A stretch of 64,000 bases of DNA, taken from assembly GCA_030065095.1 (NCBI GenBank), contig JASJDP010000022.1, positions 1-64,000 on the forward strand, given 5' to 3'. Both the position numbers and the translations under genes were made by a program. Shown here one piece after another: positions 11,688 through 13,996 of this stretch. The notes under the pieces were generated by a model. That model was given only the letters and a program-made list of their open reading frames with translations. It was not told where the DNA came from and did not search any database. Each line of letters opens with the position of its first letter. Position 1 is the first letter of the stretch. This stretch comes from Rhodobacter sp. (GTDB lineage: Bacteria > Pseudomonadota > Alphaproteobacteria > Rhodobacterales > Rhodobacteraceae).

Positions 11688-12068
11688 TCAGCCGCCACGT
11701 TGTTCGGCGGCAAGCTCCTCGACATCCTTGAACTTGATCGATTCGCCGCATCCGCAGGCGTCCGCCACATTGGGGTTTTTGAACTTGAAGCCCGATTCCA
11801 GCAGGCTCACCTCATAGTCGATCTCGGTGCCGAACAGGAACATTTGCGCCATGGGGGCGATCATCACCACCGCGCCATCCTGTTCGACCACTTCATCATG
11901 CGGGTCGACCTGGTCGACATACTCCATGGTGTATTCCATTCCCGCACAGCCGCCCTTCTTGACGCCGATCTTGAGACCGCGGTGGCCTTCCTTGCCCATC
12001 AGCTTGGCGATCTGCGCCGCCGCCGCCGGGGTCATCGTCACCGCCTGCTTTCCCGGAATGCCGAACAT
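11688..12068 (-). CDS. A-type iron-sulfur carrier (HesB/IscA/SufA family)
   Basis: A 126-aa Fe-S cluster assembly carrier. The three cluster-ligand cysteines are C41 in KKGGCAGMEY and C105/C107 in DACGCGES, the conserved Cx(n)CxC arrangement. It probably accepts clusters from the SUF scaffold and delivers them to client proteins. The N-terminal extension MFGIPGKQ is short. The SufT-like gene at 13631-13996 is on the same strand, but two unrelated genes lie between them. Confidence 0.93.
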   Translation of the reverse strand: MFGIPGKQAVTMTPAAAAQIAKLMGKEGHRGLKIGVKKGGCAGMEYTMEYVDQVDPHDEVVEQDGAVVMIAPMAQMFLFGTEIDYEVSLLESGFKFKNPNVADACGCGESIKFKDVEELAAEQRGG

Positions 12069-12098: not shown

Positions 12099-12830
12099 TT
12101 AGGGGCTCGGCGCGCGCACGGCAATGGGCGGCAGGGCGTCTGCGAGTTCCAGGACGGCAAAGGTGGCCGCGATGGCCCATGCGAAGCTCGCCAGCGTGCC
12201 GATGATCACGTATTCCGAAGCAGCGCGGTTTTCTGCCACGGCGCCAAACCGCAGGATCGACTTTGCCGCGATCAGAAAGCCTATTCCGGCCATCGCGTCG
12301 GCGAGCATCAGGACAAAGATCAGGGTGCGTTCCAGAAGGCCGATCCATTCGCCGCCCCCCGGCAGACCGTCGGTTCCCTCGTCTCTTGCGGAACGGACAG
12401 GGCCGAGATCCGCCATCAGCAGGCCCACCGCAAAGCCGCCCGCCCGGACGGCGAGGATCAGGCCTGCGGTGAGCGCCGCGCCGTGAAGGACGAGCGGCTG
12501 ACCGGCCCAGAGGCCCTGGGCAAAGAGCCCTGGCACGAGCCATGCGATGCCTGCGAGACTTGCCAGATGCGCAAGCTGATCGCCGAGAAACGCGCCAAGG
12601 CCGGCCCATGGCCCATAGGTTTTGACCGCGTCGATGGCCAGATGCACCGCCGCCAACGCGGCGATCCAAGGGCTCCACGCGCCGATTGCGGCGACGGAAA
12701 GGGCGCAGACCAGCCCGGCATGCAGCAGCAGGACCGCGGGATTGCGCTTGGTCGTGACCATCCAGCGGGGCTGAAACACGAAATCGGCCAGCGTGTGGGC
12801 AAAAAGCAGGGCGGTGAACGTCTCGATCAT
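12099..12830 (-). CDS. DUF3307 membrane protein
   Basis: A 243-aa polytopic membrane protein. It opens with the family signature ETFTALLFAHTLADFVFQP, in which the H and D of the first helix and a second HLAID (AAVHLAIDAVKTYG) are conserved. At least five hydrophobic helices follow. The biochemical role is unknown. Family members are typically encoded beside SatD proteins, as here: the SatD gene ends four bases upstream, so the pair is one operon. The start at ATG 12830 is favoured over the longer frame. Confidence 0.85.
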   Translation of the reverse strand: MIETFTALLFAHTLADFVFQPRWMVTTKRNPAVLLLHAGLVCALSVAAIGAWSPWIAALAAVHLAIDAVKTYGPWAGLGAFLGDQLAHLASLAGIAWLVPGLFAQGLWAGQPLVLHGAALTAGLILAVRAGGFAVGLLMADLGPVRSARDEGTDGLPGGGEWIGLLERTLIFVLMLADAMAGIGFLIAAKSILRFGAVAENRAASEYVIIGTLASFAWAIAATFAVLELADALPPIAVRAPSP

Positions 12831-12834
12831 GGCC

Positions 12835-13476
12835 TCACCGGTCGGTCTTGGGCGCAAATTCGTGACCGCGAAACGCGCCCAGCGGGTTTGTCAGGGCAGA
12901 CCATCCCGCGGCCGCGAGGCGCGACTGAACGGCCTGGCGGGTAATGCCGAGGCGGTCCGAAAGGTCCTCGTGCGTGGCGCTGGCGTGCAGCAGGGCCAGC
13001 GCCACGGCTTCGGCCTGTGCCGCCGTCCAGCCGGCCGTCTGGTGTTCCACCAGATCAAAGATGCTCGTCTGCCAGATCCCGATTCCATCGCCCGCGATCA
13101 CCAGCCTGCGGCGTTTCGGGATCCTGTCCAGATGGTCGCCGGAGACGAAGAAGGCTCGCCCCGAGGCATCCGACAGATCCGCCGTCCCCGTGCTGTCCAC
13201 CGGCCCGATGCCGACGGATATGCGCGTCTCGATGTCCAGATCGGCCGCGCGGAGCCATGCAAGAAAATATATCGTTGCGTCAAGTACATAGAGAGGCTTT
13301 TTCAGGTAAACCTGCCAACCGTCGCCGCGAAAGCGTGTGAACCGCAGGTCCATCGTCCATTCCTGCCCATAGTCCTCGGCGGCCTGCCGCAGCCTGTCCA
13401 TGGCCGCCTCCACATGCCGGGTGCGCGATGCCACTAGGTCGCCGGTCAGGACGGCGGAAACGGGGTTGGAGGCCAT
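12835..13476 (-). CDS. SatD-family protein with C-terminal HTH
   Basis: A 213-aa protein. It opens with MASNPVSAVLTGDLVASR, the SatD-family N-terminal motif (xTGDxxxSR). A cyclase-like alpha/beta body follows with RFRGDGWQVYL and RISVGIGPVDS. Near the C-terminus is a helix-turn-helix, THEDLSDRLGITRQAVQSRL, which suggests DNA binding. The ATG at 13476 has no Shine-Dalgarno sequence because the space in front is taken by an 18-bp palindrome, so translation may be leaderless or tightly controlled. It forms an operon with the DUF3307 gene. I infer autoregulation from the operator array. Confidence 0.8.
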   Translation of the reverse strand: MASNPVSAVLTGDLVASRTRHVEAAMDRLRQAAEDYGQEWTMDLRFTRFRGDGWQVYLKKPLYVLDATIYFLAWLRAADLDIETRISVGIGPVDSTGTADLSDASGRAFFVSGDHLDRIPKRRRLVIAGDGIGIWQTSIFDLVEHQTAGWTAAQAEAVALALLHASATHEDLSDRLGITRQAVQSRLAAAGWSALTNPLGAFRGHEFAPKTDR

Positions 13477-13478
13477 TT

Positions 13479-13554
13479 GCAACAAATAACGGTTGCTTTC
13501 AGGATAAGCAAGTAAAAGGGCTTGCTTTTAGAAATAGCAAACAAAAAGACTTGC
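13479..13554 (-). promoter_or_regulatory. Array of three 18-bp palindromic operator-like sites with exact 29-bp period
   Basis: Three copies of GCAA-N10-TTGC start at 13479, 13508 and 13537: GCAACAAATAACGGTTGC, GCAAGTAAAAGGGCTTGC and GCAAACAAAAAGACTTGC. The spacers are 11 bp each and AT-rich, in contrast to the GC-rich surroundings. The first site ends three bases before the SatD start codon. Equal spacing suggests cooperative binding of a dimeric regulator, most simply the HTH of SatD itself. The promoter must lie inside or just beyond the array. Confidence 0.7.
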
Positions 13555-13630
13555 AAACGAAAGGGACGACCTGATGGCCGTCCCAGAGAGGCGTGCAGTC
13601 GGTCAAACGTGAACCGCGCCGGCGGATGCC

Positions 13631-13996
13631 TCACATGAACCCAAGCTCCAGCCGGGCCTCGTCGGACATCATGTCCATGCCCCAGGGCGGATCCCAGGTC
13701 AGTTCCACGTCGACCTGCTTGACGCCGGGCAGCGGCTCGATGGCGTCGGCGACCCAGCCGGGCATCTCGCCGGCCACAGGGCAGCCCGGGGCGGTCAGCG
13801 TCATGGTGACGCCGACGGCGTTCTCGGGGTCGATCTCGATGGTGTAGACGAGGCCCAGATCGTAGATATTCACCGGAATTTCGGGGTCGTAAACCGACCG
13901 GCAAGCCTCGACCACGCTGTCGTAGAGCGGATGGTCGGTCGACGACGGCTTGATCAGCGGCGCGCCTTCGAGGTGATCGGATGTGTCTTCGGGCAT
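13631..13996 (-). CDS. SufT/PaaD-like DUF59 iron-sulfur assembly protein
   Basis: A 121-aa MIP18/DUF59 protein acting in Fe-S cluster maturation, most similar to SufT. It carries VYDPEIPVNIYDLGLVY, the DPE signature, and TLTAPGCPVAGEMPGWV, which contains the conserved reactive cysteine. The C-terminal motif is VELTWDPPWGMDMMSDEAR. The start at ATG 13996 sits behind GGGGGAC and the upstream open frame looks non-coding. It is not adjacent to a suf operon in this window. Confidence 0.9.
   Translation of the reverse strand: MPEDTSDHLEGAPLIKPSSTDHPLYDSVVEACRSVYDPEIPVNIYDLGLVYTIEIDPENAVGVTMTLTAPGCPVAGEMPGWVADAIEPLPGVKQVDVELTWDPPWGMDMMSDEARLELGFM

Follow-up and report, generated by a model that had tools for sequence, protein, structure and literature searches.

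A regularly spaced palindrome array preceding satD in Rhodobacteraceae, a probable operator of the cyclase-like SatD protein

In a 64-kb stretch of DNA from Rhodobacter sp. (64,000 nucleotides, hereafter the window) three palindromes with an exact period of 29 bp precede a satD-DUF3307 gene pair. We interpret this array as the operator and promoter of its own regulator. SatD would be an autorepressor with a leaderless transcript, it would also control the expression of DUF3307, perhaps together with that of a SufA/IscA-like gene, and a nucleotide bound to its cyclase-like domain would switch it. We give this reading a probability of roughly 0.78, a value lowered slightly because few loci are informative for the second base of the half-site and because cyclases and GGDEF domains reach tied scores in the structural comparison. 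The array, its conservation, its covariation with SatD, the fold of the protein and the gene partnership were computed and are presented below.

The array and its gene neighborhood

Along the minus strand, the elements were arranged as SufT-like gene, terminator-like hairpin, array, satD, DUF3307 and SufA/IscA-like gene. The features, with positions in the window, were:

11688–12068, minus strand: SufA/IscA-like Fe-S protein gene, starting 30 bp past DUF3307
12099–12830, minus strand: DUF3307 protein gene, 243 aa (PF11750, E 5.5e-13; PHROG 2470 'membrane protein', E 3.4e-12)
12835–13476, minus strand: satD, 213 aa, with a class III cyclase-like domain (~1–147) and a C-terminal helix-turn-helix, HTH (~152–204; R180 and Q181 covary with the half-site)
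13479–13496: candidate operator dyad beside the satD ATG, GCAACAAATAACGGTTGC; its center contains the putative −10
13483–13488, minus strand: putative −10, TATTTG, read from the sequence and from the TAT-containing centers of ATG-proximal dyads
13506–13511, minus strand: putative −35, TTGCTT, read from the sequence, 17 bp from the −10
13508–13525: candidate middle operator dyad, GCAAGTAAAAGGGCTTGC; its half-site on the ATG side overlaps the putative −35
13537–13554: candidate distal operator dyad, GCAAACAAAAAGACTTGC
13563–13584, minus strand: terminator-like hairpin in the interval between the SufT-like gene and the array (one found, 0.3 expected in shuffles)
13631–13996, minus strand: SUF-associated Fe-S assembly gene (SufT-like; TIGR02945, E 7.7e-45), upstream of the array

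Each dyad is an 18-bp GCAA-N10-TTGC palindrome with a 10-bp center. The spacers are 11 bp long and the starts lie exactly 29 bp apart; the three dyads, positions and period given in the initial annotation are exact in the sequence. It had also placed the last dyad against the start codon. A dyad does adjoin the ATG, but it is the one with the lowest coordinate (13479), because satD lies on the minus strand (13476 to 12835). The lack of a Shine-Dalgarno sequence was confirmed, since this dyad is only 2 bp from the ATG (13476) and leaves no room for a ribosome-binding site.

No other GCAA-N10-TTGC sites were found in the window, for which dinucleotide shuffles gave 1.13 sites, and none of 200 such shuffles contained a pair of dyads at 29 bp. 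Across the 5.34-Mb assembly, exact matches to the two-dyad pattern occurred solely at the satD array. Allowing up to two mismatches gave one more match, GC-rich and on another contig, with two matches per strand for the reversed-pattern control.

The SufA/IscA-like gene possibly shares the DUF3307 transcript. The SatD array may also set this Fe-S assembly gene, which elsewhere is often found close behind the SufT-like gene.

Conservation of the array within the family

The Pfam SatD model (PF16264) gave a single match in 394 genomes of the family and none in the window's own genome, and for this reason orthologues were searched with the SatD protein itself. It was present in 84 of the 394 genomes (84 of 393 genera). 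We kept 83 orthologues and excluded G221 (E 9e-4, partial stretch). Upstream regions were searched for chains of dyads spaced by 28–30 bp, and the chains were tested against dinucleotide shuffles.

An array missing from orthologous loci, or unevenly spaced there, had been named at the outset as the observation that would speak against the proposal. The search did not refute it: the array was kept upstream of 72 of the 83 orthologues at p ≤ 0.05, and of 65 at p ≤ 0.01, although two of the 72 chains, L042 and L031, seem spurious on visual inspection. Neighboring dyads of the 72 arrays were spaced by 29 bp in 85 cases, by 28 bp in 25 and by 30 bp in 23. The same finder, applied to control upstream regions, detected chains at 8/75 SufT-like and 2/75 IscA-like genes, with about four expected. 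A first, cruder finder had placed 53 of the 83 loci above the 99% point of the shuffles, at least one of them (L024) being GC noise. In the pooled upstream DNA, 29 bp was the strongest period and 18 bp the most frequent dyad length.

Eleven orthologues had no array at p ≤ 0.05. Residue 180 of SatD was altered in nine of them (L021, L024, L032, L034, L059, L061, L063, L072 and L074; Q seven times, K and P once each), and these nine may use another operator. The remaining two, L062 and L085, had R180 and kept a single dyad.

A second set was assembled through DUF3307, from the best 80 loci among the matches listed, nearly all of them Rhodobacteraceae or Rhodobacterales by title. A satD gene with enough upstream DNA was found in 78 of the 80, and 65 of these 78 were absent from the first set. 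Arrays were detected at p ≤ 0.05 in 59 of these 65; of the six without, four lacked R180 and two (L197 and L213) carried it. One locus of different labeling, L190 (DISE01000106.1, titled as a Castellaniella MAG), had a DUF3307 protein 52% identical to that of the window, plus satD and an array. Castellaniella is presumably not a Rhodobacteraceae genus, and the locus would represent either a transfer or a mis-binned contig.

The gene partners were conserved as well. Of the stretches fetched for the 83 family loci, some of them short, 80 contained a DUF3307 gene, 79 a SufT-like gene and 75 an IscA-like gene. The start of DUF3307 overlapped the end of satD by up to eight bases in 42 of 80 loci. 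The presence of DUF3307 in 80 of 83 loci and this overlap point to control of DUF3307 by SatD.

Covariation of half-sites and the helix-turn-helix

On the same architecture, the half-sites differed by genus (GCAAG, TCAAG, ACAAG, GAAAG, GGAAG, GCAACC, GCACCC). We compared them with the HTH residues in 67 loci; these, and the 67 loci of the position tally given further below, are different selections from the 72. Before counting, we assigned the half-site register manually in four loci (L007, L054, L068, L031) and removed L042 as a spurious chain. The protein alignment (A1) was made without L048, L066, L075, L077 and L085, which are truncated, frameshifted or divergent.

Base 1 and residue 180 agreed in 66 of the 67 loci, with G and R180 in 54, and T or A together with P, T, A, K or Q in 12. 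The only exception was L057, with T and R180. At base 2, C was accompanied by Q181 in 60 loci and A or G by P, A or E in four, the exceptions being L051, L054 and L071, which had A with Q181 (3/67). Among positions with at most 30% gaps, the best partner of base 1 was residue 180 (z 17.1) and that of base 2 residue 181 (z 8.8). The best partners of base 5 were residues 185, 178 and 186, which, like 180 and 181, all lie within the HTH.

In the second set, counted without four register-ambiguous rows (L219, L195, L179, L172), the rule for base 1 held in 55 of 55 loci (44 with G and R; 11 with T or A and P, S, Q or T; Fisher 8e-12). Base 2 gave 52 C-Q combinations, one A-A and two A-Q (L175 and L189). 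Because few loci vary at residue 181 (four in the first set and one in the second had a residue other than Q), the base-2 part of the code is weakly founded. In the upstream regions of L071 and L189, the half-sites GAAGGC and GAAGCC go with S182, which suggests that residue 182 may also read the half-site, as a third residue.

When the tree was constructed with the HTH left out, 11 changes of the base and 10 of the residue were counted. These repeated changes indicate that the relation between base and residue is not a single inherited event, with the strictly corrected test being small: well-supported branches provided six independent pairs, of which five changed the same way, none the opposite way and one not at all (p 0.0625). 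The initial annotation had proposed that the HTH binds its own array. The covariation of the half-sites with residues 180 and 181 of the SatD HTH supports this, and on these grounds SatD very probably binds its own array.

The array could instead belong to another regulator, for example one of a neighboring Fe-S or iron gene, given that the unit usually shares its stretch with SufT-like (79/83) and IscA-like (75/83) genes. We consider this improbable: the half-site tracks SatD's own residues 180 and 181, arrays persist where the neighboring genes differ, and the exact pattern occurs once in the assembly.

Putative promoter overlap and proposed mechanism

The position of the dyads was tallied in 67 loci (L007, L054, L068, L031 and L042 omitted). 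The last dyad began 18–22 bp before the ATG in 45 of them; in the other 22, the last dyad chosen by the finder began 29–66 bp before it, so that the −10 may not be occluded at every locus. A TAT was found in the center of 29/45 ATG-proximal dyads versus 16/142 upstream dyads (Fisher 8e-12), which is what a −10 directing transcription from the ATG should show. In the window, TTGCTT (13511–13506) and TATTTG (13488–13483) are separated by 17 bp and located at −35 and −12. A strict sigma-70 consensus scan of the window locus gave no promoter. With TATTTG as −10, the +1 would fall on the A of the ATG and the mRNA would be leaderless.

A role of the palindromes in RNA, as attenuator hairpins, would fit the perfectly pairing half-sites of some loci, e.g., L006. 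It is very improbable: the dyads would be untranscribed if transcription starts at or near the ATG, the half-sites covary with the HTH residues, and hairpins need no even period.

We return to SatD as the probable DNA-binding protein. The steps from binding itself and dimer formation, through repression from a leaderless start, to ligand sensing and DUF3307 as the output could be as follows. A SatD dimer would set its two C-terminal HTHs on each 18-bp dyad, with residue 180 reading base 1 of the half-site and residue 181 reading base 2 (G1-C2 by R180-Q181). Two to four such dyads, one every 28–30 bp, would span the promoter. In the window, the dyad on the ATG side would enclose the likely −10 and the middle one overlap the likely −35, such that bound SatD would exclude RNA polymerase. 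Autorepression would also set the level of DUF3307, and perhaps that of the SufA/IscA-like gene that follows. The N-terminal cyclase-like domain would most likely bind a metal-nucleotide ligand, which would release SatD from the array or tighten it there. As 29 bp correspond to ~2.8 helical turns, consecutive dimers would sit on different faces of the helix; cooperative contacts among neighboring SatD dimers are possible.

We read SatD as an autorepressor because protein on the dyads would block the polymerase. SatD might bind the same array as an activator or dual regulator, with distal dimers recruiting RNA polymerase and only the proximal dyad repressing. The arrays do extend past the core promoter (the first dyad is at −122 in L010 and at −136 in L048), and a poor −35 with no promoter in the strict scan is what is seen at activated promoters. 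However, in 45 of the 67 loci of the tally the ATG-nearest dyad would cover a −10, and an activator bound there would block the enzyme. Activation is thus the less likely mode of action, though not a negligible one.

The SatD protein

SatD, for which Pfam PF16264 is the family model, is the secretion and acid tolerance D protein of S. mutans. The SatD label given to the window protein held in part. PF16264 misses this protein, with no match at E ≤ 1 and a score short of the gathering cut-off, but a profile-profile comparison supports the label over the full length of SatD. In hhalign, the profile of 78 relatives (A1) matched six SatD proteins with a probability of 98.4 and an E of 9.3e-15 over residues 4–205, including the HTH. 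Five of these six were scanned and all five matched PF16264; the sixth, L260, was over the cut-off. The loci L113, L114 and L116 matched PF16264 at E 3.9e-6 to 2.9e-4, under its cut-off.

The six SatD proteins, all from Pseudomonadota (L003, L256–L260), were each encoded next to a DUF3307 gene. Upstream of these Pfam-SatD genes, arrays were found at p < 0.03 in five of six and at 0.053 in the sixth; the chain of L260 is poor by eye.

The predicted structure (AlphaFold2, pLDDT 96.5) contains the C-terminal HTH, which also gave sub-threshold Pfam HTH matches (best E 0.0045). The cyclase-like body proposed for SatD is likewise supported, as a predicted fold, by Foldseek, VIA and the sequence profile. 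With Foldseek, the N-terminal part matched class III cyclases, with E 1.2e-5 to Rv1900c and modest TM-scores (0.27–0.43 by query length, in the rows shown). VIA aligned SatD with Rv1625c over 138 residues (Z 10.4, rmsd 3.1), and GGDEF domains, which have a related fold, tied with cyclases there at Z 9.4. The sequence profile matched Ma1120 with E 0.0013.

The family alignment, from which L085 was excluded, comprised 156 rows, 13 of them duplicates. The metal-binding aspartates D13 and D52 were conserved in all 155 rows that have a residue at these positions, and likewise in all 12 relatives from other families. As both are conserved, the cyclase-like domain would be the natural site for a nucleotide ligand. 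The position of the presumed catalytic Asn, 110, placed by motif spacing and not by superposition, was variable, and that of the presumed catalytic Arg, 114, placed in the same way, had R in 99 of 156 rows and D in the window protein. Because these two positions vary, catalysis by SatD is doubtful, provided that they are placed correctly.

In one locus, L085 (G330, contig 55), satD was decayed. Both aspartates were gone, there was no DUF3307 match, and the array was above p 0.05 with a single dyad kept; here the chemistry of the regulator, its partner and its array seem to have been lost together.

The DUF3307 protein

The DUF3307 protein matched PF11750 with 49.5 bits, above the cut-off of 23, and we take it to be a membrane protein. 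Its model was all helical (pLDDT 93.6). The invariant or near-invariant residues were H12, D16, Q20, H37, H63, D67, D84, Q85, H88, E167, R168, K190 and R194, which are suggestive of a membrane enzyme that may have a metal site. The fold had no match among known structures (best Foldseek E against the PDB 0.91; VIA Z at most 5.4), and Foldseek against viral models gave none at E ≤ 0.001. The effector of Pycsar systems carries a cyclic-nucleotide-binding domain; in DUF3307, Pfam at E ≤ 1 found PF11750 only, and no such domain. PADLOC gave no match at E ≤ 1 for either the SatD or the DUF3307 protein.

Relatives outside the family and mobility

In a sample of 398 genomes from the phylum, 28 had a match to SatD: eight in the family, 12 clear ones in families outside the class (L111–L122) and eight weaker ones. 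No clear relative was seen in the remainder of the class within this sample. The 12 outside relatives were taken for gammaproteobacteria, from their resemblance to a Pseudoalteromonas record. All 12 had DUF3307 in the fetched stretch and ten had arrays (p ≤ 0.05), whose half-sites included new ones (GTAACC, GTAATT and ATAGCC, among others). The HTH residues outside the family, and the half-sites of L114 and L132, were read by eye. Q181 again went with C2 (L118, L119, L121), and V181 or S181 with T2 (L112, L114, L117, L120 and the Pseudoalteromonas locus L132). The flanking genes of 13 relatives outside the family, judged from their unscanned translation starts, differed from one another, except for those shared by L250 and L253.

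Within the family, the satD-DUF3307 pair sits between genes that are otherwise neighbors. A SufT-like gene was carried by 61 of 61 family genomes. Thirty loci were examined, 22 of them without satD; in these 22, the IscA-like gene was within 3–459 bp in 13 and at 1.3–1.4 kb in two, and in seven none was found in the stretch.

That the dyads are chance repeats, or the remains of a mobile element, would agree with an orthologue in just 84 of 394 genomes and with the placement of the pair between genes that are close neighbors in 13 of 22 loci without it. Such an origin is barely credible, since the architecture is kept in 72/83 loci and in 10/12 relatives outside the family, and the 200 shuffles of the window did not yield a single 29-bp pair.

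We also considered a phage origin of the genes, which was rejected: a tblastn search of SatD and DUF3307 against 50,697 phage records gave no match. Plasmids were searched with satD only, and matches were found in three of 72,556 records. One of them, on a Sphingomonas insulae plasmid (L131, NZ_CP048421.1, 959–8449), encodes a satD-like gene and DUF3307 beside a Pycsar-like operon, a TIR-domain gene and an HTH/ImmA-IrrE pair, a neighborhood that appears defense-like by annotation. This copy had no array in the 160 bp before the annotated start (p 0.75), and visual inspection of the DNA preceding the gene that overlaps satD did not reveal one either.

Significance and comparison with known systems

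In the literature covered, which lies outside most subscription journals and bioRxiv preprints, no function was described for SatD and DUF3307 as a pair, and neither a regulatory function of SatD nor a link to nucleotide cyclases was found. The sat operon is touched on in a paper that deals with pyogenes strains (PMC11323703). SatD, so far an acid-tolerance label in the literature found, would gain a likely job as a self-binding regulator with readable DNA specificity, and the SatD-DUF3307 pair becomes a testable unit. The code of R180-G1, Q181-C2 and P180-T1, with a more tentative A/P181-A2, offers a natural data set of regulator/operator co-evolution. As the sensor of a repressor, a cyclase fold would be unusual.

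A wider reading can be put forward only tentatively, and we rate it well below the autorepressor itself. The SatD family might consist of one-component regulators of nucleotide signals, in which the cyclase-fold domain binds or slowly turns over a nucleotide and governs polymerization along the 28–30-bp array. This would make a sharp switch for DUF3307 as a membrane enzyme or effector, in an ancient, self-contained stress or defense device. If true, the repressor would have its own enzyme domain as sensor.

Self-repressors that act on several operators are already known. New here are the cyclase-fold body, the conserved 28–30-bp array and the readable code. AcuR of Rhodobacter sphaeroides heads a leaderless operon as its own repressor, which was tested experimentally, and controls downstream genes through an inverted-repeat operator in the promoter region (PMC3017554). 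It is thus a precedent for the logic of SatD, being both leaderless and self-repressing, but it belongs to the TetR family, is described with an 8-bp inverted-repeat operator and not a 29-bp array, and senses acrylate (PMC3017554).

With the SatD family, the window protein shares the profile match over residues 4–205, the DUF3307 partner and the arrays, present in five of six cases; it differs in being missed by the Pfam model at E ≤ 1. With the class III cyclases (Rv1900c, Ma1120, PycC), it shares the predicted fold and both metal-binding aspartates. In contrast to them, SatD has a fused HTH, TM-scores are modest with GGDEF domains scoring alike, the presumed Asn position is variable and the Arg position is a D in the window protein. 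Pycsar systems combine a cyclase-fold protein with a receptor, possibly the membrane protein PycTM, and they resemble the satD-DUF3307 unit in pairing a cyclase fold with a (putative) membrane protein (PMC11224242). The two differ in that DUF3307 has no match to a cyclic-nucleotide-binding domain, that the satD unit has no PADLOC match, and that SatD has an HTH which appears to read its own promoter.
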